The notes under the pieces were generated by a model that saw only the letters and a program-made list of their open reading frames with translations, was not told the DNA's origin and did not search any database. Both the position numbers and the translations under genes were made by a program. This document shows positions 4,918-46,640 of a stretch of DNA of 64,000 nt, one piece after another (position 1 is the stretch's first letter; every line of letters begins with the position of its first letter). The stretch comes from Thysanoteuthis rhombus. Taxonomy: Eukaryota; Mollusca; Cephalopoda; Oegopsida; Thysanoteuthidae. The DNA is taken from assembly GCA_963457665.1 (NCBI GenBank), contig OY735227.1, positions 45,336,459 through 45,400,458 of the forward strand, read 5' to 3'.

Positions 4918-4982
<65 letters not shown>

Positions 4983-5680
4983 GTCTTTCAACATCCGTCG
5001 TTGGACATAGACCTTGCCCAGGATTTACTACACTTCTCTATCATGGGTGTATCAGAGCCAATACTTTCTGAATTTGTCTAGCTTGTCTCTCCTTCTAATA
5101 TTCTGCCAACTTCGATTGGGCATGTGATCTCAGGGGATCCATGTCATGAGTCGCGATGTCTATCAGTTGTCTGGCATGCTTGTAACATGGCCTGCCCACT
5201 GCCATTTGAGATTTTTAATCGATTCTATGATGTCCCTGACTCTTCTCTTTTCCTGGATGTACTGTGCTATCTTGTGGTCTCTCAATGTAAGGCCCAGCAA
5301 AATTCTTTCATGAGCACGCTGCATAGCTCTCAATTTGCAGACCTGTCTCTTGGTTAGGTTCCATGTTTCAGCTCCATAAGTGTCTACTGGGAAGATGCAT
5401 TGGTTATAAACCCTTCTTTTTTGGACTAATGGGATCTTCTTGTTTCTGAAGGTTGAGCTAGCTCTGCCAAAGTCTTGCCATCCTAGGGTGATTCTTCACT
5501 TGATTTGTTCTTCTTTTGAGGGTCTCATGGAGATTCGTTGTCTTAGGTAGATGTAGTGATCTACTTTCTCCAGTTCTGTGTCCTCAATTTTGATCTTAGT
5601 GTTTTTATCTCCAATGTGGTTGTTGCACATGATCTTCGTCTTGCTGAAGTTCATGAGTAGGCTGAGAATTTTTGAGCAAC
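4915..5680 (-). mobile_element. RTE-clade LINE, 3' end with (ATC)n tail
   Basis: Read on the minus strand this is the 3' part of the RTE-type LINE also seen at 14781-17200 and 29566-30905. It covers the region after the reverse transcriptase core, including stretches matching KTKIMCNNH and the C-terminal HVARLADNRW and RWRDELDKFRKYW blocks of the better copy, all broken here. The element ends in a pure ATC/GAT microsatellite at 4918-4982, consistent with RTE-clade tails made of short tandem repeats. It is 5' truncated, as usual for target-primed insertions. Confidence 0.85.
4918..4982. repeat. (ATC)n microsatellite, LINE tail
   Basis: About 21 uninterrupted ATC units. Read in the sense of the LINE (minus strand) they are GAT/TGA units at the 3' terminus. 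Other copies of the family have the same, shorter tail at 29566-29585 and 43062-43083, so the array likely expanded from the element's own tail. Confidence 0.9.
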
Positions 5681-8205: not shown

Positions 8206-8965
8206 TCTTCCAGGAGACATAATGAAGAATAAGAAGTCAATAGTTTATGAAACAGACTTCCAAAGTATTTAGTAGCTACTGTGACTCAAAAGTGTAATGG
8301 TATTTCTTTTTGTTTCAAAAGTGAATATCAGAACCTCTTGAGCCAACTGAAAATATGGCATTGCTAAAGGTTATTACTGCTGCCCGACAGCATCTACTGG
8401 CATTTTTTAAGTCTATTCTTGTTATTCTTTCATATTAATGAATATTTAATATCAAAGAAAAATGAAACTTATGTGTGTTGAAGGCATACTAATGATAAAG
8501 AAGAAATTATTAATGAATGTACTGTGGAAATTGTAAGGTTAAAATGTATTATTCAATATTATAGAAGGAAGTACTGTGTTCTTAAGGTTAAGAAGTCTTT
8601 TCCACTGGACTTTCTTTCGGATATTATTTTTTGAACTTTTTAGGATGAGGAGAATGCCTGTGATGGAAATGCACAAGGAGACAGATATTATGCACAAAAC
8701 AATTAGAATATTTGATTGTGATAAGAGATAGACAACATACATGCACCTTCAATACCGCTAATAATGAGAAAGCATGCTGTAATAGAATGCAAGTCAATTA
8801 AAGATTGTGCACAAAATCCTCTAATGGATGAATTAAAGTAAAGAATAGCTACTCATAGTGTATTGGTAAGTATATGTATTGACAACATACCAGTAAGAGA
8901 TATTTACAAATGTGAGAATTGGTGAAGAGAATACATATTAACTATTATAGCTAAGATGGAAAGTG
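8206..8965. other. No recognisable gene
   Basis: AT-rich sequence between a family B repeat and the Penelope-like element. Open frames are short and unlike any family I recognise, and no repeat shared with the rest of the window was found. Confidence 0.55.
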
Positions 8966-10213
8966 AGACAGGTCCTTGAAAAGGCCAGAGCCTCCGAGCC
9001 AAATACGAAAAAGGAGGAATGGGCAGCCATCAAGACCCTTCAGACACAAGCATAGTCATACTGCCAGCGGATAAGGGAAACGCAACTGTAGTAATGGACA
9101 AGCTAGCATACAGTGAAAAGTTGGCTAACATAATTGGGGAGGGTGGCTACTGCAAGTTAAAAAGAGATCCAACTCTGAAAACCGAGAGGAAGCTGTCACA
9201 GATCCTAAGCAAGAACAAGGATCATTTCCCCCAATAACCTACAGACAGTTAACTCAAAAATATAGTAAGCCACCAAATATGTACAGCTTCCCAAAGATTC
9301 ACAAGGTGGGTACTCTATTACAACCCATAGTAAGCTGTCGGGGCTCAGCATACCATCCGCTGAGCAGGTACCTGGTGAGTATAATCAACCCGCTGGTGGG
9401 TAAGACCTCATCCTATATAAAGAACTCAACTGACTTCGTAGAAAAACTCAGTGGGGCTCCAATTCAAACACAACGAATGTTGAGCCTAGACGTGGTGAGT
9501 CTCTTCACACAAGTACCTACATCTGAAGCACTGTCAGTAGTTAGGGATAGATTAGGTTCAGATCCCACATTGGATGAACGCACCAGCATTCCTCTTAACA
9601 ACCAAATGGAAATGTTGACCTTCTGCATTGAAACAACATACTTCCAACTGGGCAATGAGATGTACCAACAGGAGGAAGGCTTAGCTATGGGATCACCGCT
9701 ATCACCAGTCATGGCAAATATATACATGGAGTACTTTGAGGAATTGGCCTTAGGAACATCACCACCATGGCCAAGCATGTGGCTTCGATATGTAAATGAC
9801 TCCTTTGTACTATGACCACATCCGGAAGACCCACAGTTACTACTTGACCACGTGAACTCAATCAGAGCTCCAATACAGTTCACAATGGAAAAGGAGAGTA
9901 TCAATAAATTAGCCTTCCTGGATGTACTGGTAACAAGATCGGAACAAGTTTTCAATACATCTGTGTATCGTAAGCCAACATTTACTCGTCAATATCTCAA
10001 CTTCGCCTCTAACCATCCATACAGCGTTAAGAAAGGGATTGTCCGATGCTTACAGCACCGAGCAAAGCTAATAAGTAATGACACTGAAACATACCTCTGT
10101 GAGATGCATACCATAAGGAAGAATCTCCAGAAAAATGGTTACCCAAAAGGTTTAACTGTCACCAAGAGAGAAAGGAGAGTGACGGAGGAGGAGGAGGATG
10201 ACAATCATTAACC
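8966..10213 (+). pseudogene. PLE reverse transcriptase, broken
   Basis: Reading begins with RQVLEKARASEPNTKKEEWA in one frame, shifts near 9042 into the frame with SIVILPADKGNATVVMD, and shifts again at the C run near 9226 into PPITYRQL, YSFPKIHKVG and SLDVVSLFTQVP (motif A). Then come GLAMGSPLSPVMANIYME (motif B) and RYVNDSFVL (motif C). The catalytic YVDD is YVND here, so the second metal-binding aspartate pair is lost. A TGA at 9813 replaces what appears to be tryptophan, and the same frame continues to 10211 through LAFLDVLVT and VYRKPTFTRQYLN. The PADKGN and FPKIHK motifs with this palm are typical of PLE, not of LINE or retron RTs. Confidence 0.92.
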
Positions 10214-10351
10214 AACTACAGTCTGTCTCCCCTACCTTAAGAATGTGTCTGAGAAGATCCAGAAGATCTGCGCCCCATATAATATCCGGGCTGTATTCAG
10301 AAGTAGATCAGCTACCTCTCCCGCACCAAACCACCCACTGAGTTATCGAAC

Positions 10352-10687
10352 ACCAAGAACCGAGTATACTCAATACCGTGCAGCTGTGGTCACGAATACA
10401 CAGGAGAAACATGTCGCCCCTTGAAGGTTTGGGTGGAAGAACACCGAAAAGCGGTGAGGAAAGGTGAAACTAACAAATCGGGTATAGCTGATCACGTATG
10501 GAGGGAAAATGGAGACCACCTACCCCTGTGGAACAAAGTTGAAATAATTGATCAGGAAGAACACTGGAAGATTAGAAAATTGAAAGAGTCGGCCCATATG
10601 CTAGGCAAGCAAAACTGCCTCCGTAATCCTAGCATTGAAATCGATACCATATGGGAACCATTGATAATGAAAGACAGAAAACAGTAA
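10352..10687 (+). pseudogene. PLE GIY-YIG endonuclease domain
   Basis: The frame reads VYSIPCSCGHEYTGETCRPL, then EEHRKAV, SGIADHVW, LPLWNKVEIIDQEEHWKIRK, LKESAHML, SIEIDTIWEPL and ends at TAA. This matches the PLE-type GIY-YIG nuclease: the cysteine pair before YxGET, the EEH block and the IWEP end. The usual YIGET reads YTGET here. It lies in a different frame from the RT part that ends at 10211, so at least one frameshift separates them. In active elements it nicks the target DNA to start reverse transcription. About 110 residues remain, close to the normal domain length. Confidence 0.9.
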
Positions 10688-10719
10688 CATCAAATACCAA
10701 AAAACTGTCAGGTTTAAAG

Positions 10720-10850
10720 TTCCTAAAAATTAGCACCAGTTGTTCACATGGACAAATAGCGTAGTGGTTACAGAATCAGACAAAATTACTGCAAGTAATC
10801 TGATGGTTCTAGTTTCAATCCCAGTGTGAGACAATAATAAAACTACTAAT
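10720..10850 (+). repeat. tRNA-like A/B-box segment in the PLE 3' region
   Basis: TAGCGTAGTGGTTA (10757-10770) fits a Pol III A box, and GTTTCAATCCC (10812-10822) fits a B box, at tRNA-like spacing. Between them CAAAATTACT and AGTAATCTG can pair as a long anticodon-like arm. The same segment at 19785-19895 has a cleaner B box, GGTTCGATCC. It follows the endonuclease stop codon by only some 40-70 bases, so it seems to be part of this PLE's 3' region or a SINE fused to it. Confidence 0.65.
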
Positions 10851-10926
10851 GCTAAGAGGGGAGTGTGGTCAATATAACCCCTGTCAGTTAAATAAAGGGT
10901 TTGGTTTGTTACTTCCCCACACCTAC

Positions 10927-10960
10927 CTGATGAAGGCTGTTGAGTACAACGGCTGAAATG
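10927..10960 (+). promoter_or_regulatory. Hammerhead-like hairpin in the PLE 3' region
   Basis: CTGATGA (10927-10933) is followed by A, an 8-bp stem GGCTGTTG / CAACGGCT closing a four-base loop AGTA, and then GAAA (10955-10958). The boxes CUGANGA and GAAA around a stem are those of the hammerhead ribozyme core, and PLEs are known to carry such ribozymes. The extra A before the stem and the unclear cleavage triplet argue for caution. The second PLE fragment has the equivalent hairpin at 19999-20033. Confidence 0.5.
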
Positions 10961-11044
10961 TTGTATGAAAAACAACCAAGATGAGGATAGTCTGAATAAT
11001 AGAAATAACTATAATATTGTTTTTTCTGTCCATCTACCTTTATA

Positions 11045-11175
11045 TACCATTAGGAAATGGATATATAATCTGACAGAATATTTATGAATGTGTTATATCA
11101 TTTGAAACTCTAGTGACTCATCCTCTGTGTGATAACAGGTCATTTCAAATAGAGTCTCAAATAATATAACACATT
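11045..11175. repeat. Palindromic foldback of the SINE tail module
   Basis: GTGTTATATCATTTGAAACT on the left is mirrored by AGTCTCAAATAATATAACAC on the right, with the CTGTGT-containing tail module between them. The arms together span nearly the whole segment, so it could fold into a long hairpin. Pieces match 6640-6730 and 11330-11365. Confidence 0.6.
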
Positions 11176-11194: not shown

Positions 11195-11410
11195 GTGGCA
11201 GTTCAACTCAATGGTAAGAGCAACATCACGTGGCTACTCTATCAGTTACAGGTTCAATTCCTTTAGCAGCCCCAATTTCTTTCATCATCTATTCTATTTA
11301 CATTGTCTAGGTCAAATGATACATAATAGGAGATCATTTCAAATAAGAGTTACAATGTGATATAACGTAATTCATATTCATTCTGTCTGATCATATATAT
11401 CCTTTTCTGA
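11195..11410 (+). repeat. tRNA-derived SINE-like unit
   Basis: The head (11201-11275) has CAACTCAATGGTAAGAG at the A-box position and GGTTCAATTCC at the B-box position, and starts and ends with complementary GGGC/GCCC-type bases, as a decayed tRNA would. The tail from about 11283 (ATTGTCTAGGTCAAATGA onward) matches the tail of the unit at 6435-6790. The flanks on both sides carry related ATCATTTCAAAT blocks, so it may have inserted into, or share ancestry with, the neighbouring palindrome. Confidence 0.6.
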
Positions 11411-14335: not shown

Positions 14336-15931
14336 ACAGGAAACAATCAAGAATTTCATATCTTATCTCTCATTTGACAAATTTTAGTTCTTAAAAAAGC
14401 TAAATCATGGTTTTCAGACATGAGGAATGCATGTAATATTGTCCTCAGTGCACACACGGAATGTGCAGAAACATAGGAGAATCCTCATGAGCAACATCAA
14501 TTTTGTGAAAACTATGTTGATTGAGAGAATGTCCTGTTCAGTTCAGTGTTGTTGTCATGTCAGCAGCTTCTTGGTCTACCCCTTGATCAAATACCTATAA
14601 TAATTTGCTTGAGAAATGCTTTCGGGAAACCAGTGTTGCTTCTTTTAATGTGATGAAAGAGTTTGTGTTCCCTACACTTGATGATTTTGGTTATTGGTCA
14701 TTGTTTGGTGGTGTGTTGTAGCTATTCTGTCCTCATATGAACTTGTAGATGGTTTCCTGTTATAAATCTCAGGATGTTATTCTCATCATTAGTCATTTAG
14801 CATCCATTGTTGGATATAGACCTTCCCTAGGATTTGCCACACTCCTGTATCATGGGTGTTGCAGAGCCAAATCTTTCTGGTCTAATTCATCTCTCCATCT
14901 TGTATTCTGCTGGCCTCGGTTGTACATGTGATCTCTGGGAGGTCCATGTTGTGAGTCATGATGTCCATCGGTTGTCTGCCATTCTTGCAACATGACTGAC
15001 CCATTGGCATTTGAGTTTTTTAATGAATTCTATGATGTCTTGGACCCCCATTTTCTTTCTGTCTTGTGATCTCTCCATGTGAGATTGAGCATGATTTTTC
15101 ATGTGCACGTTGCACGGTTCTCAGTTTTTTGGTAAGTTTTTTGGTTGTTTCAGCTCTACAGATGATTATTAGGAGGATATATTGGTTGTATACTCTTCTT
15201 TTTTAGGGTAATGGGATCTCCTTGTGCTTGAAAGTTGAGGTTGTTCTGCCAAAGGCTGGCCACCCTAGAGTGATTCTTCACTTGATTTCTCCTTTTGAGG
15301 ATTTCATGGAGATCCGTTGTCCCAAGTAAATATATTGGTCTACATTCTCCAGTGCTGCGTTTTTGATTTTGATCATTGTGTGTTTATTTCCAACATGATT
15401 GTTGCACGACCTTTATTTTGCTCAAGTTCATGTGAAAGCTGACTTTCTTGCTTTTTTCATTCAGTTCCTATAACATTAGTTGGAGGTTGTGTAGGTTTTC
15501 TGCAAAAAGGATGGTGTCATCTACAAATCTGAGGTTGCTCAGATATTCACTGTCTATTTTGATTCCTTGATTTTCTCAGTCTAGATTTCAGAAGATCACC
15601 TGTAAAGAGTTTGGGTGAGCTGGTAACACCTTGTCTTACTGCTTTTTGAAGTTGACAGGCCTCCAAATCTTTGTGTAGCCTGATAAAGGAGCTGATATGA
15701 CTGTATACATGTTGCTATACTCTAATATATACTAGGTCTATAGCTTGTAGAGTTATAGCCTCCATGATCATGGGAATTTCCACCAAGTCAAAGGCCTTCT
15801 TGAAGTCGATGAATGCTACAGCAAATAGCATTTTGTTTTCAGCTGCTTTTTCTTTTCACTGACTCAACAAATGAAGATGATCCATGGTTGAGCAGCTTCT
15901 TCTAAAGCTAGCTTGTTTCTGTGATTGCTTT

Positions 15932-19487: not shown

Positions 19488-19784
19488 CGTATGTTTAGTC
19501 ACTTGATAAAAACTGTCATGGGACCAACATCTTTTGGCAGCATGCCATGATGGAGTGATCAATAAGAAAAATAAAAAAGGTTGATCAATAAGTAAATTGC
19601 TTCTCTGGTCTTCCTGATCAATTATCTCAACCTTGTTCCAGAGGGGTAGGTGGTCTCCCTTTTCTTTCCATACCTGGTCAGCTATACCCGATTTATTGGT
19701 TTCACCTTTACTCACCGCTTTTCGGTGTTCTTCCACCTGAACCTTTAAGGGGCGACATGTTTCACCTGTGTATTCGTGCAGCTG

Positions 19785-19895
19785 TGGGCTAAAAATTAGC
19801 ACCTGTTGTCCACATGGACACAGTGCAGTGGTTACAGCATCAGACAAATTACTGTTAAGTAATCTGATGGTTCTAGGTTCGATCCTAGTGTGAGA
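19785..19895 (+). repeat. tRNA-like A/B-box segment, second copy
   Basis: CAGTGCAGTGGTTA (19821-19834) and a textbook B box GGTTCGATCC (19876-19885) sit about 42 bases apart. CAAATTACT and AGTAATCTG between them can pair. It is the counterpart of 10720-10850 and less decayed at the B box. Confidence 0.7.
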
Positions 19896-19998
19896 TATAA
19901 CAATACTACTAACGCTAAAGAGGGGAGTACGGTCAATATACCCCCGTCGGATAAATAAAGGGTTTGATTCGTTACTTCCCAAATCTACCAGATGATAC

Positions 19999-20033
19999 CT
20001 GACGAAGTCCGTAGAGTGCAACGGCCGAAACGT
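19999..20033 (+). promoter_or_regulatory. Hammerhead-like hairpin, second PLE copy
   Basis: CTGACGA (19999-20005) fits CUGANGA, followed by A, an imperfect stem GTCCGTAG / CAACGGCC with loop AGTG, then GAAAC and the palindrome ACGT. Comparison with 10927-10960 suggests an ancestral perfect 8-bp stem GGCCGTTG / CAACGGCC; both copies have decayed differently around it. Confidence 0.5.
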
Positions 20034-20407
20034 ATGAAAAACAACCAAGATGAGGATGGTCCGAATATCAATAGAAATAATAATAATACCTCATCTCAGA
20101 AATTCCGAGATATACTAAAAAAAGTCCTGATTTTCAAAAAAAACAAGCATGAAAACTAGCTGACACTAACTATGGACTGATTTAGGATAAACTTACATAG
20201 TAGATTGAACCGCCGCTAAATATCTATTCTTGGTAGAATATTAAAAAAAACAAAAAGGCTCTTTTTTTCAAGACATAATAAGGAGTAAATGTTTAAATTT
20301 TCAGTTCTGTACGTCCATTAGTACAGCTAGACCAACTTAAAAACTGAAGGAACCTATATTAACGTTGACTATTTTGATGTTGCCAGTTTTGGTTGGGAAT
20401 TTCTAAA

Positions 20408-24214: not shown

Positions 24215-24480
24215 CACCACCGATTCATTGTCCTAGGTAGATGTAGTGATCTACTTTCTCCAGTTCTGTGTCCTTGATTTTGATCTCAGTGTTTTTATCT
24301 CTGATGTGGTTGTTGCACATGATCTTCGTCTTGCTGAAGTTCATGTGTAGGCTGACTTTCTTGCTCTCTTCATTTAGTTCATCTATCATTAGTTGGAGGT
24401 TGTGTCGGTTCTCTGCAAAAAGGGCAATGTTGTCTGCAAATTTGAGGTTGCTCAGATACTTGCTGTCTATAAATTCAATA
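24215..24480 (-). mobile_element. RTE-clade LINE internal fragment
   Basis: The minus strand encodes DSKYLSNLKFADNIALFAEN, then MIDELNEESKKVSLHMNFSK and TKIMCNNH. FADN corresponds to the FADD catalytic motif C of LINE RTs, so the second aspartate is lost. It is truncated at both ends, lacks the C-terminal region and 3' tail, and adjoins a CATCATCACCACC stretch. Confidence 0.85.
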
Positions 24481-24949
24481 GTCTTATGCCAAATACAACA
24501 GCAGGTTCCCTGTAAAAAAGTAAGCAACATATTTAAGTGTCATTTTTTCCTCATTACTTTGTATAAGCAAGTATATTTTCTTTGTATCTTTTCCAAAATT
24601 ATTGTTTTGCTGTGGATGCCAATTGTTCATAAAATAAATACTTTTTAATTTCTCGATTTAGTACAACTTGAAGCATGGCCAATACTAAACAATCTTGAAC
24701 CATGTGTAAAATAGGTATTAGCTTAATGAGCTGTAACACATTAACCATGGCTACTTACTCCACTACCAATACTATCTTGGAACCTATAGGCATATGGGAA
24801 TGCTTTCTATAAGGGGAGCAAAAGGCTTGATTTATACAAAATTTTTCCTGATTTTTCCCAAATTACACCCATTTTTATAAAATTCAACATGTTTTGCTCA
24901 AATATGATGGGGACATTCGTCCTACCCCACTGAGTGTACATTTTGTGCA

Positions 24950-25547: not shown

Positions 25548-25864
25548 ATGGCAAAAAAGTTTGTCTAGTTCATCTCTCCAACAAGTACTCTGCTGGCCTC
25601 GATTGCACATGTAATCTCTGGGGATCCATGTTATGAGTCATGATGTCTATCGGTTGTCCGCCATTCTTGCAACATGGTCAGCCCATTGCCATTTGAGTTT
25701 TTTAATGGATTCTATGGTGTCTCTGACTCCTGTTTTCTCCCTGATATATTGTGCTGTCTTGTGACCTCTCCATGTGAGGTAGAGCATGATTCTCTCATGT
25801 GCTCATTGCATGGTTCTCAGTTTGTGGGTCTGTCTCTTGGTTAGGTTCTATGTTTCCCAGCCCC
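25548..25864 (-). mobile_element. RTE-clade LINE 3' fragment
   Basis: It matches the C-terminal region of the RTE copies at 4995-5360 and 29690-29965 (read on the minus strand, the GHVARLADNRW region through the MQRAHERI block) but lacks the 3' tail. It directly abuts a family B fragment. Confidence 0.8.
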
Positions 25865-27965: not shown

Positions 27966-29565
27966 AAAGAGATGATTTTTTTCATTTAGAGGATCGTGTA
28001 AAGACCAGAAGAAATGGAAATCCGAATGTACAATATCTATTGCATTCAATGGATGAGTTGATGCTTCCCAGCTAAGCTGTAACAATCTTAGCATGGTCAT
28101 TAATAAAAAATGCAGTCTAGTCTGGCATTATTCTGATGAAACGTTCTCTTTCTTTCAATCAATTCTGGTCGCCTCTTGTTGATTGCTGCCTACAGTTGGT
28201 CTAATCGGGAGTAGTATTTATTCAAATCAATTGTTTAGTTATCCAGAAGGAGCTCATAGTTGAAGACTTCCTTCCAATACTGCCATTTACACAGGATTGC
28301 CTTCTTTGAATGAAAACCGGCCTTTGGTATGCTTAATGGTTGTTTATTTAAATTGCCCCAAGATCTTGTGTTCCACATTGTTGTAAAGCAACCCTTTCTC
28401 ATTACTATTGCAGATTGTTTTGAAAAAATAAAATTTTCATTATGTTTAAGTAGCAAAGTGTACATGGAAATATCTAGTTTAACTTATGTAGAAGCCCAAC
28501 ATCAAAGTGACTAACCAAGTTGTTGGAATGATTTTCACTGCCTGATTTGGATATTCTAAATATGTTGGCTATCTCTTGCGTCAATAAAATTGATAAATCT
28601 CAAGTAATGTCTCAGTTTAATTGCTCTCCGATTGTAAAGCATTGTCCAGTGAGAACTCTCCTGTACAAAACTTTGCAAACAATTTCTGATTCACTCAGTT
28701 TTTCACAGTACCTTCTCCATGAATAGCACAAATCTTATTTTGTATTTGAGTTGCCTTTTTACCTTTCTTGAAACAGAAAAAATTCTTGAACATCAGAATC
28801 AATCAACAAAAATATACCAATTTTGATAAATTTAAAAAAAGTACATGCTGATATGACAGCTGTCACAATAAAATTAAAAGTGATCTTATTGAATAAACTT
28901 AGTTAGAACTAAATGTTACCTACACACAGAAATAACTTTTTGGACAACTTGAAAGGTTGATGAGTTTTTATATCATGTATCTAAATGTATGCTTTTTTTA
29001 TATATTTATACAGATCTCTTTCTTTCTCTCTCAATATATGTAAATATATATAAAGATATCTATTTATATAATGAACATGAAATCACATGAAAAATTTGCA
29101 AGTAAAAAAGATGTGCATATTTTTGCTTGTACCTCACCTCTGTTGAAGTTATTTGCTAGAAAAGTTTTTTTGTTTTCTTCAGTTGTTATGTATTTGTTCT
29201 GTCTATTTTTGAAGTTGTTTACTGTTTTCATTATTAGTATAGTTGAGTCATTCTAGTTGTTTATTATTCTTTGAGAGAGGAAGTTTTTTTCTAGTCTTTT
29301 TTTTATAAATTTTGTTGTTTCTCTTGTTCATTGTATAGAAATTTTTTGCTGGGATGTTATCTATGCCTTTTATCATTTTGAATGTTTGTATTTGCATCTC
29401 CTCCTACTCTTCTTTCTTTTAATGTAGTTAGTTTTAATTTTTGAAGTATGTCTTTATATGGCAGGTTTTGAAGGTCTGGGACCATTTTCGTTGCCCTTCT
29501 TTACATAGTTTCTAGTTCTGTAATGTCTTTTTAGAGATGTGGATTCCATGCTTGGGCTGCATATT
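27966..29565. other. No recognisable gene
   Basis: AT-rich; only chance open frames, none resembling a known family. A short CT-rich and TA-rich run lies at 29010-29060. Confidence 0.5.
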
Positions 29566-29639
29566 CATCATCATCATCATCATTAGTCTCTTAACATCCA
29601 TTGTTGGACATAGATTTTCCCCAGAGTCTGCCAAATTTC

Positions 29640-30302
29640 TCAATCATGGGTGTCGCGGAGCCAGTATTTTCTGAATTTGTCAAGTTCATCTCTCCATCTT
29701 GTATTTTGTCGGCCTTGGTTTTGCATGTAGTCTCTGGGGATCCATGTTGTGTGTCGTGATGTCCATCGGTTGTCAGCCAGTCTTGCAACATGACCAGTCC
29801 ACTGCCACTTGAGCCTTCTCATAGATTCCATGATGTCTTGGACCTCCGTTTTCTTCCTGATATAGTGTGTTGTCTTGTGATCTCTCCATGTGAGGCTGGG
29901 TATGATTCTCTCATGAGCACGCTGCATGGTTCTCAATTTGCGGGTCTGTCTCTTGGTTAGGTTCCATGTTTCAGCCCCATAAGTGACTATCAGGAGAATG
30001 CATTGGTTGTATACTCTTCTTTTTAGGATGAATGGGATCTTCTTGTTTCTGAAGGTTGAGCTTAATCTGCCAAAGGCTTACCATCCTAGGGTGATTCTCC
30101 ACTTGATTTCTTCTTCTTTTATGGGTTTCATAGAGATTCGTTGTCCTAGGAAGATGTAGTGGTCTACTTTCCCCAGTTTTGCATCTTTGATTTTGACAGC
30201 TATATCCTTATTATCAGTGTGATTGTTGTACATGACTTTTGTTTTACTGAAACTCATGTGTTGGCAGACTCTTTTGCTTTCTTTGTTTTGTTCATCTGGC
30301 AT
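29640..30302 (-). pseudogene. RTE C-terminal region
   Basis: Two frames, 30302-30078 and 29936-29640, hold SFSKTKVMYNNH, KVDHYIFLGQRIS and then RIIPSLTWRDHKTTHYIRKK, RLKWQWTGHVARLADNRWTS and NTRWRDELDKFRKYW. This is the conserved post-RT region of RTE-type elements, ending with the GHVARxxDNRW and RWxDD-like blocks. Frameshifted between the two parts. Confidence 0.88.
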
Positions 30303-30314
30303 TGGTTGGAGGTC

Positions 30315-30605
30315 TTATAGGCTCTCTGCAAAAAGGACGATGTTGTGAACAAATCTGAGGTTGCTCAGATATTTGACGTCTATTTTGGTTCCTCTATTCT
30401 CCCAGTCCAGATTACAGGAGATCATTTCAAGGCAGACTGTGAAAAGTTTTGGTGAGCTGGTATCACCTTGTCTTACACCTTTTTGGAGTTGGAAGAATTT
30501 AGTCTTTATGTAGCCTGATAAAGGAGTTGCTGTGATTGTATATATGCTGCAGTGCTTTGAGTTGAATGCCCTCTTGAAGTCTACAAATGCTACAGCAAGT
30601 GGCAT
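30315..30605 (-). pseudogene. RTE reverse transcriptase palm
   Basis: The frame has AVAFVDFKRAFNSK (motif A), FQLQKGVRQGDTSSPKLFTV (motif B) and YLSNLRFVHNIVLFAESL (motif C). The FADD box reads FVHN here, so both catalytic aspartates are gone. The spacing of motifs is normal for LINE RTs. Confidence 0.9.
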
Positions 30606-41600: not shown

Positions 41601-42840
41601 GCCATTTTTTGCTGGGAAAAAATGGGTCTTTATTCCATCAAACATGGTTAATTTCCCCTTTCTTTTACATTTGTGTTTGAAAGGCAGGGAAAAAAATTTT
41701 GAAAATAATTCTGTATAATTGTAATTGCAAGTCTTAATATATACAACATGATTTTGTATTGAATGGAGCACCTGGCCTGTTTTATTCGTCTGTTTTTAAA
41801 TTCTTTGGTATAAAAAAAATTTCTGGCAGTCAGAAAATTAGTAGAAATATCGGTTGACTATTTCAACTACTATAGCTACTTTACTTGCTAAGTGCCCACC
41901 CCCCAAATGTTGGCACCAAAGGTGTCAATGAATGTTGGAAAAGAGCTATGTGTTCAAGACAACAAGATACCAGCTTATGTTCACCAAAATTTTTCATTGT
42001 CACTGTTGATTGACAATTTTCATTGCTTACTGTTTATTTGTTGTGAACATTTTCATTACAATCATTTTCTAACCAACATGCAAATTTCTATTTGGTTTGA
42101 TATAATTTTCGCTTTCAATCTATTTTGATAAAATTAACTGTTACCATATTACAGATGATTTTCATATACCTGATCTTATATTTTGACTAAAACTATTGAT
42201 AGCTATTATTTAATACAGAAAACTCAGTTTATAACAATCAAAACTAAAACTCTAATCAAAAAACCCAATTTATGGATGACAGAGGAATTGTTTCATCAGT
42301 TTTAGCTTCTTTTCTCAAAACTGACAAAATTACGTGGTAAAATAAACTATTATATATTCCAGATCAATGATTTTTTTTAACTTGACCCATGATTAGGGAT
42401 GATAGTACTGTGACATTTTTGAGGACTTTGGAAAAGTCAAAAGCAGATTTTGATAAAAAATACAAGGAAATAAAACCTTCAGCCCTTAGGGGATGTATAA
42501 TCTGAAAAGAGACGCATCTTTTTTCTCCAGCAAAAGAAAAGGTTTGCTTCTGCTTCATGCATTTGACAAGGACTAAAGAATGAGCTGGCCAAAGCATTGT
42601 TTATGATATCTAGGTTTTAAAGGAGACTTTCTATTGTTTTAAGAAAAATTTGAATGTAATGACTCTTATTAAAATTATAGAAGGGGGAACAAAAGTTTGA
42701 GGCATTTACAATTTGAAATCTCAATCATATTATTCTACAGTAGAAAAATACAGAAAATCTTATATCATTTATGATTTAATTAGTTAGGTTTTCATGGAAA
42801 ATCTTGTTATAAATTGTGTGACTATAGTATCTTTTGTTGG
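38601..42840. other. No recognisable gene
   Basis: Mostly AT-rich. At 39482-39520 the phrase GTGGCGCCCCTATAGGTGGC is strongly GC-rich for this window and partly self-complementary (GCGCC and GGCGC), followed by CACACGTG. The open frame at 39155-39418 has no recognisable domain. Confidence 0.45.
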
Positions 42841-43085
42841 GTAATGGGATGGCCATGTTGCAAGAATGGCTGACAACTGATAGACATTACAACTCACAAC
42901 ATGGATCCCCAGAGATGACATGGACTACCGAGGCCAGTTGAGTACTACATGGAGAGACGAGCTAGACAAATTCAGAAAGTACTGGCTCGATGATGCCCAC
43001 AATAGAGAAATGTGGCAAATCCTGGGGAAGGTCTATGTCTAATGACGGGTGTCAAGAGACTGATGATGATGATGATGATGATAAA
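42841..43085 (+). mobile_element. RTE-clade LINE 3' end, plus strand
   Basis: GGATGGCCATGTTGCAAGAA corresponds to GHVARM, and GAGAGACGAGCTAGACAAAT to RDELDKF. The element ends TGATGATGATGATGATGA at 43062-43082, the same tail as the minus-strand copies. It is the only plus-strand RTE copy here and very short (about 245 bp). Confidence 0.88.
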
Positions 43086-43694: not shown

Positions 43695-43870
43695 ATAAGG
43701 GTTCATAAGTGGTGTAATGGTTTGCAAGATATTCTTGCAGATCATTACAATCGTGTTGTGAGTTCAATCTCCACTGCCTGCTCCATGCTTTTGGCCTTTT
43801 GTCTAGACTAAGCTAAGCTAAGTAAATAGAAGCTAAACAGTTGGAAGTGTCAGTACAAATCTTTGGTCTT
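43695..43870 (+). repeat. SINE family G, tRNA-like head and CTAAGCTAAG tail
   Basis: AAGTGGTGTAATGGTTTGC at the A-box position and GAGTTCAATCTCC at the B-box position, 45-50 bases apart, followed by GTCTAGACTAAGCTAAGC and AAGTAAATAGA. Related units lie at 47590-47730 (minus), 54385-54480 (plus) and 55975-56100 (minus). The ATGATCATTAC-type arm is shared. Confidence 0.7.
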
Positions 43871-45815: not shown

Positions 45816-45948
45816 TTTTCTTTTTTTTTATCGATTTTTTTTCCTTTTTGATCTTTATAAAACTACTAATGCTGTCAAAAATAAATGGACTGCTTTTATA
45901 ATATGCCTAATATTGAAAAGAATAACCCCTAAACGACAATACTTAATG
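45816..45948. repeat. Direct repeat, first copy
   Basis: A T-rich tract is followed by AAAACTACTAATGCTGTCAA and AAATAAATGG, repeated at 46500-46640 some 690 bp away. Both copies can be read in frame as TTNAVKNKWXAFXI, but differences are mostly amino-acid changing and neither has an AG splice acceptor next to the tract. Confidence 0.7.
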
Positions 45949-46499: not shown

Positions 46500-46640
46500 T
46501 TTTCTTTTTTCTATCAATTTTTTTTTTCCCTTCATTTTTCCTTTCACAAAACTACTAATGCTGTCAAAAATAAATGGTCTGCTTTTGTAATATCCCAAAT
46601 ATTAAAAAAAAAACAAATCTAATAAACAACTCGAAAACTT
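46500..46640. repeat. Direct repeat, second copy
   Basis: T-rich tract, then CACAAAACTACTAATGCTGT and CAAAAATAAATGGTCTGC, matching 45816-45948. Diverges into an A run at 46604-46613. Confidence 0.7.

Follow-up and report, generated by a model that had tools for sequence, protein, structure and literature searches.

Does a tRNA-like module with Pol III-type promoter boxes, lying next to a hammerhead-like hairpin at the end of a PLE, belong to a SINE or to the PLE itself? The question arises from a 64,000-nucleotide stretch of the Thysanoteuthis rhombus genome (hereafter the window), for which a first-pass annotation had proposed either a SINE that uses the PLE 3' end or a PLE with a captured SINE. 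tRNA-derived SINEs of the tRNA-Core and tRNA-Deu type share tails with LINEs. As described in the available text of two studies, such SINEs of octopus and other cephalopods have a tRNA-like head and a high copy number (PMC8967140, PMC13282606), both of which are seen in the unit analyzed here; unlike these SINEs, the unit has a PLE tail at its end and double-arm insertions. We characterized the unit in the window and searched the genome (2.73 Gb, 514 contigs) for further copies.

The window holds two copies of one unit of approximately 270–310 bp, in which tRNA-like A and B boxes are followed by a minimal hammerhead-like core and then by an in-frame ATG with a tail. In the alignment, copies 1 and 2 are 82% identical over 10723–11016, and past 20088 the tail of copy 2 resembles that of genome copies.

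10741–11007, + strand: copy 1 of the unit (5' end from solo genome copies, 3' end from the shared short-tail end), read here as a PLE pseudo-LTR (pLTR) with tRNA-like head, hammerhead-like core and ORF start/tail
19807–20116, + strand: copy 2 of the unit, long tail form, with sequence in common with copy 1 from 19789
8939–8949, no strand: possible left target-site duplication of copy 1, pairing with 11006–11016 with 1 mismatch in 11

The candidate 11-bp duplication would flank the whole of copy 1, PLE part included; one as good is found in 10.5% of 200 random place pairs, and it is therefore weak alone. Upstream of copy 1 lies a degraded PLE coding part, and a related fragment accompanies copy 2:

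8950–10722, + strand: PLE coding part, 5'-truncated and degraded, then 3' flank up to the unit (from ORFs)
9129–9815 and 9816–10211, + strand: putative PLE RT fragments (from ORFs)
10307–10687, + strand: GIY-YIG-like C-terminal fragment (ORF, assigned by eye)
19606–19778, − strand: GIY-YIG-like fragment of copy 2, inverted relative to the unit, 91% identical to 10391–10563

The first RT fragment (9129–9815) matched RVT_1 with an E-value of 8.5e-6 and 26.1 bits, which is under the curated cut-off of 29.6, this copy being degraded. No Pfam match was obtained for 9816–10211 or 10307–10687, and no meaningful match for the latter among PDB sequences; we take it to be GIY-YIG-like from a motif recognized by eye. 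In viral contigs, two unit patterns had no match and the RT fragment as query gave no confirmed relative. Among the bacterial genome contigs searched, an exact 21-mer in one Chitinophagales MAG (L001) was taken as chance.

The tRNA-like head is defined by its A and B boxes, whose consensus sequences are TRGYNNANNGG and GGTTCRANNCC, respectively:

10757–10767, + strand: A box of copy 1, TAGCGTAGTGG, 0 mismatches to TRGYNNANNGG
10812–10822, + strand: B box of copy 1, GTTTCAATCCC, 1 mismatch to GGTTCRANNCC
19821–19831, + strand: A box of copy 2, CAGTGCAGTGG, 1 mismatch
19876–19886, + strand: B box of copy 2, GGTTCGATCCT, 1 mismatch

The boxes of copy 1 are 55 bases apart and form the only pair with 1 mismatch in total on both strands of the 64 kb; 10 simulated 64-kb sequences contained none. 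Pairs with 2 mismatches occur at 4 sites against 2.7 expected per 64 kb, so the boxes of copy 2 alone would not stand out. Across all fetched loci and the window, some of these loci overlapping, the 55-base spacing is kept in 43 of the 52 pairs with at most 1 mismatch, and as in tRNA-derived SINEs the boxes lie at tRNA spacing near the 5' end of the unit. ARAGORN predicted no tRNA in the window, and neither window copy had an Rfam tRNA match even at E ≤ 10. When eight other loci were searched at E ≤ 2, the tRNA model RF00005 matched six (27.7 bits in two loci, 27.2 in one and 23.1 in three), all under the gathering score of 29, and two had no match. All four arms (acceptor, D, anticodon, T) are aligned by the model, and the anticodon loop contains a long insert. 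Over 52 copies, the tRNA-like pairing shows no covariation beyond shuffles, and the T-stem pair 66–77 fails in 33 of 50 copies. A relation to tRNA is thus suggested by the box pair, the sub-threshold model match and, as described below, the fixed 5' end, and not by covariation. TTTT is present in 3 of 54 unit copies, rarer than the 25% expected, and AAAA in 44 of 54 against 81% expected, these copies not being independent of each other.

Other box-like and unit-like sequences were seen in the window. One further tRNA-like A/B pair, unrelated to that of the unit, lies at 11204–11261 (2 and 0 mismatches), about 190 bases past copy 1, between stretches near 11085–11160 and 11310–11360 that by eye resemble inverted repeats; it is possibly a SINE inside another element. 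The pair at 43710–43771 (0 and 2 mismatches) has a spacing unlike that of the PLE unit and no good alignment to it. Exact matches of 17 and 15 bases to the middle of the unit (10837–10853) occur at 45857–45873 and 46548–46562, within another two-copy repeat, and represent a shared motif or chance.

Downstream of the boxes follows the hammerhead-like core:

10923–10966, + strand: minimal type I hammerhead-like motif of copy 1, identified from the sequence, with its layout compared with genome copies and with PAc (available text of PMC11167929)
10927–10933 and 10955–10958, + strand: CTGATGA and GAAA of this motif, with stem II and a helix I of 3 bp
10960–10962, + strand: GTT of copy 1, after which the cut is predicted, two bases before ATG
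19999–20036, + strand: degraded hammerhead-like motif of copy 2 (CTGACGA ... GAAAC GTATG), from the alignment with core positions checked

The arrangement reported in the first-pass annotation holds for copy 1: 3' of the GIY-YIG-like fragment, A and B boxes at tRNA spacing are followed 105 bases past the B box by CTGATGA, an 8-bp stem (with two G-U pairs) and GAAA. Its statement that 19785–20088 repeats this arrangement stands in part. The unit is repeated, but the GIY-YIG piece of copy 2 is inverted and there is no second succession of GIY-YIG and module, so that a fixed position of the unit behind GIY-YIG could not be read from these two copies alone. The inverted piece, joined at the 5' side of copy 2, looks like an inversion during insertion. 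The hairpin of copy 2 has a weaker stem and lacks three bases of the cleavage and helix I region compared with copy 1, which leaves its hammerhead broken. The majority sequence of 50 copies reads as a 4-bp helix I, CUGAUGA, one extra base, a 6-bp stem II, GAAAC, directly GUU, and helix I, and contains all parts of the minimal type I hammerhead in its PLE form (CUGANGA, GAAA, stem II, GUH and helix I). The PAc sequence and its description show the same order of parts (available text of PMC11167929). Standard pairs fill 93.9% of the hammerhead cells compared with 94.0% in shuffles, and the stem pairing shows no covariation beyond shuffles. No Rfam hammerhead match was obtained at the gathering threshold in the window, at E ≤ 10 in the two copies or at E ≤ 2 in eight loci. 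Cleavage in the unit is a prediction from the layout of the motif.

The unit ends in an ATG and a tail:

10965–11009, + strand: putative start of the PLE reading frame inside the copy 1 tail (MKNNQDEDSLNNRNN)
20034–20117, + strand: putative start of the PLE reading frame in the copy 2 tail (MKNNQDEDGPNINRNNNNTSSQKFRDIL)

Among 28 long tails with a conserved end word, 26 have this word at a multiple of three bases from the ATG, and 25 have an open frame. From this frame, and by analogy with described PLEs, the tail probably consists of the first codons of the PLE reading frame. A genome copy with an intact 5' pLTR–ORF junction was not found, the one candidate followed being 5'-truncated, and no tail was seen to continue into the ORF. 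Past the tails there was no shared ORF-like continuation; one stretch is common to two loci (L035 and L036), which over 97 bases past the tail are alike at 92%, perhaps because the same other repeat was the target rather than because of an ORF.

The available text on two well-described cases gives this layout a precedent. In PAc of Anolis the hammerhead lies at the ORF start, and the protein, which begins to copy from within its template, both cuts and extends the two strands (PMC11167929). In Adineta vaga Penelope, the first ORF codons lie in the pLTR, and a 31-bp tail is optionally present at one of the inverted pLTRs (PMC3846280). Like the unit as read here, these Penelope/Poseidon-type PLEs have a pLTR with the first ORF codons, a minimal type I hammerhead at the ORF start, inverted arms, short target duplications and solo pLTRs (PMC11167929, PMC3846280). 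They differ from the unit here, which has a tRNA-like A/B-box head (the main text of PMC11167929 and of PMC3846280 contains no 'trna') and very many solo copies. By this analogy the stretch looks like a pseudo-LTR with a hammerhead at the start of the next ORF; a plain PLE 3' region with a hammerhead is not supported.

Is the tRNA-like head a regular part of this pLTR, or did it arrive by accident? With the 293-base region as query, the genome search returned 4,198 first-look candidates, 40 of which were scored. A 25-mer at the ATG/tail has 5,080 exact genome copies (0 for the reversed-pattern control); for a 25-mer taken from the PLE 3' region immediately 5' of the unit, the numbers are 521 and 0. 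In 12 of the 20 loci fetched from the 293-base search, the window copy included, GIY-YIG sequence lies directly upstream of the unit; others break off immediately 5' of the unit or begin close to the A box. Of the 5,080 tail places, 100 were listed, and the first 80 of these, which lie on a single contig (C1), correspond to 64 insertion sites: 28 complete solo units without PLE coding sequence, 28 copies truncated inside the unit, and 8 linked to a PLE. Both kinds of copy that the first-pass annotation had thought decisive thus exist, those that lack PLE coding sequence and start near the A box, and those that are preceded by it.

Arms in both orientations are present at 48 of the 64 sites, with the outermost arms pointing outward in all 48, and all 20 pairs of neighboring tails at most 3 kb apart in the list of 100 places are tail-outward. 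Of the 64 sites, 41 lie between exact target duplications of 8 bp or more, compared with 1.3% in shuffled flanks, and 29 between duplications of 10 bp or more (0.03% in shuffled flanks). Duplications of 8 bp or more are present at 21 of the 28 solo, 18 of the 28 truncated and 2 of the 8 PLE-linked sites, and at 36 of the 48 two-armed sites. Given that the duplications lie outside both arms, a two-armed site flanked in this way represents one insertion event. The unit accordingly has an inverted, head-to-head arm and a target duplication, as a PLE pLTR does, and outward-facing double tails are what we take to be a Penelope signature. Hence, the solo units were most likely inserted by PLE machinery. 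Arms of the same insertion differ by a median of 5.3% and arms of different insertions by 6.7% (34 pairs; one-sided p 0.004), a small difference that does not decide whether both arms come from one RNA.

An accidental arrival would mean that an ordinary tRNA SINE landed by chance in one PLE before the two window copies arose. The A/B-box module is SINE-like, and at 3 of the 8 PLE-linked sites (L031, L041 and L052) the tRNA-like part is missing between PLE and tail. These three sites have three different junctions, just inside the unit start in L031, in the RT region in L041 and in the 3' flank in L052, and because the junctions all differ they look like deletion or template jumping and not like one empty site. 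Furthermore, the tRNA-like part alone as genome query gave 40 scored matches, and all four fetched loci, one of which is window copy 2, also have the hammerhead region and the tail. Unit copies that were chosen by likeness to the unit do not count against a chance insertion; the duplications do, since those found enclose the whole insertion with its tails, and a duplication around the module alone was sought in copy 2 and not found. The pattern of separate insertion that the first-pass annotation had named as contrary to its proposal, a tRNA-like part with duplications of its own, was not seen. We therefore disfavor the chance SINE and consider it extremely improbable.

The two ends of an insertion differ in a regular way. 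Tails end approximately 47 bases (short) or 80 bases (long) after the A of the ATG, that is, approximately 33 bases apart, and 38 of the 48 two-armed sites have one short and one long tail, with 0 short/short, 1 long/long and 9 unclassed. If the ends were independent at one half each, 38 mixed sites out of 39 would have a p of approximately 1e-10. The longer arm is at the short-tail end in 25 of the 38 sites. Four PLE-linked sites have two arms: L031 and L069 show one short and one long tail, L052 is the site with two long tails, and L042 could not be classed, the locus ending there. The pattern looks as though each target strand had its own copying start site, the two lying approximately 33 bases apart. 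A tail extension at one of two ends is a feature of PLEs, and its length of approximately 33 bp here is close to the 31 bp on the inverted pLTRs of A. vaga (available text of PMC3846280). The 3' end of the solo units is also that of a possible autonomous partner, as in SINEs, given that PLE-linked copies carry the same tail; these PLE copies are truncated or degraded.

The 5' ends bear on which RNA was copied. In all 28 complete solo units, which were chosen for starting near the unit 5' end, PLE sequence is matched 0–16 nt upstream of the A box and none further, with 21 of the 28 at 8–16 nt (the measure is ungapped, and small deletions shorten some). Over the 80 tails, with a PLE-linked copy as reference and positions 1–18 being the first bases of the shared region upstream of the tRNA-like part, the copied sequence starts at positions 1–18 in 0, at 19–40 in 24, at 41–194 in 19, at 195 or beyond in 31, and in the PLE in 6. 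A reading of the starts at 195–245 as truncated copies was rejected, most being inverted second arms. Because the sequence further upstream is common to PLE-linked copies, the 5' end of solo units is an end of the copied RNA or of the copying, and not of conservation. A tRNA-type (Pol III) promoter would place the RNA start at about this position. Like SINEs, the solo units are short, non-coding copies with a fixed 5' end and, for the most part, target duplications.

The main rival to a Pol III transcript is a by-product route, in which a Pol II PLE mRNA would start at the pLTR, copying would begin in the tail of that first pLTR and proceed up to the 5' end of the RNA, leaving a solo pLTR, and the tRNA-like module would be a relic or a sequence used by Pol II. 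It is made plausible by in vitro work on PAc, which copies from within the ORF start on a template of 5' UTR plus ORF start (available text of PMC11167929). Solo pLTRs are reported in the corresponding text on A. vaga (PMC3846280), and the mixing of solo and PLE-linked copies in both subtypes, described below, also agrees with the route. It leaves unexplained why the RNA 5' end falls at the tRNA-promoter position in all of the solo units, and why the A and B boxes are kept at the same spacing in both subtypes. The position of the solo 5' ends favors a Pol III transcript of solo units, and we consider the by-product route rather unlikely.

A further template that would produce short units is a hammerhead-processed circular RNA. 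In the available text on metazoan retrozymes, these are short, non-coding elements with a type I hammerhead that propagate via circular RNA, and PLEs are proposed there, by inference, as the mobilizing partner of the non-LTR retrozymes (PMC7761336). The units here are likewise short and non-coding, with a PLE as probable partner, and their majority sequence has a complete minimal hammerhead layout. They differ in that their solo 5' ends coincide with the tRNA-like start instead of the predicted cut site, the hammerhead being retained uncut inside the unit, which makes a circular template very unlikely.

A third possibility is a self-sustaining SINE lineage that took a PLE tail and runs on its own Pol III transcripts, the PLE having received the head by recombination. 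Complete solo units outnumber PLE-linked sites in the sample of 64 and combine promoter-like boxes with the tail. In a tree of 52 copies (54 unit copies minus two L043 rows, which are the same insertion as L042; L042 is still two rows), the 30 solo and 22 PLE-linked rows are intermingled in either subtype. The labels change 11 times, compared with a shuffle mean of 17, and a value as low occurred in 3 and 0 of 500 shuffles. This is more than one origin would need yet fewer than in nearly all shuffles, and solo rows thus cluster in part. The clustering may reflect sampling bias, with PLE-linked rows coming mostly from the copy-1-like search and solo rows mostly from a 25-mer ending in G. No large solo-only clade is present among the 52 copies, only groups of 2–3 rows, and PLE-linked members occur in both subtypes. 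As judged from these sequences, the tree favors a repeated origin from PLE pLTRs rather than an old SINE lineage of its own, which we regard as improbable, if less so than a circular template. The tree agrees equally with Pol III transcripts of solo units and with the 5' portion of a PLE mRNA as the RNA that was copied. Of the two original proposals, the outcomes expected from each do occur, and a clear separate SINE lineage is not seen.

The reading that we consider probable is that the unit is a PLE pLTR whose RNAs are copied by PLE machinery. The unit would open with a tRNA-like promoter module of Pol III type, carry a minimal hammerhead motif in its 3' part, and close with the first PLE codons, serving as tail. 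RNAs would start approximately 8–16 nt before the A box and include the tail. Copying by the PLE machinery would begin at one of two fixed tail sites, usually a different one for each end of the cut target, and would yield a solo unit that resembles a SINE, in most cases has an inverted second arm, and is enclosed by target duplications. A more specific reading, in which the solo unit is a Pol III-transcribed SINE with the PLE as obligate partner and the PLE pLTR itself carries the tRNA-like promoter, is put forward tentatively, at somewhat less than an even chance. If it is true, every complete insertion, solo or PLE-linked, would bring its own Pol III promoter, ribozyme and copying start site, and SINEs with a tRNA-like part and a hammerhead such as Sm-alpha, and retrozymes, would arise as freed PLE pseudo-LTRs. 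The readings weighed here overlap, and their likelihoods do not sum to one.

The combination of a tRNA-like module with a hammerhead is not new. In the available text on S. mansoni, 2,342 of 2,368 tRNA-Gln-TTG predictions were classified as SINE (Sm-alpha; PMC2770079, PMC8490949), and Sm-alpha and Sj-alpha of Schistosoma are, like the unit here, short and tRNA-related, with a type I hammerhead and very many copies. They differ in that no PLE partner is named in that text (PMC2770079, PMC8490949), and the likeness noted here is one of build. What is new, as far as searched, is a tRNA-like head inside a PLE pseudo-LTR together with a visible PLE partner; a literature search of incomplete coverage, with sources available in part, turned up no PLE pLTR described as having a tRNA-like module, and this absence is weak. 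The partnership becomes testable when solo units and PLE in one genome share head, ribozyme motif, tail and insertion build. Possible start points of PLE-type RNAs are suggested by the fixed 5' end next to a tRNA-type promoter, and the rule of one short and one long tail offers a handle on how PLEs copy into both cut strands.

Among the other repeats of the window, 4957–5665, 14783–15598, 24222–24511, 25560–25856, 29560–30424 and 42840–43082 resemble one dispersed set, with direct and inverted members, and some of its ORFs read by eye like LINE reverse transcriptase.
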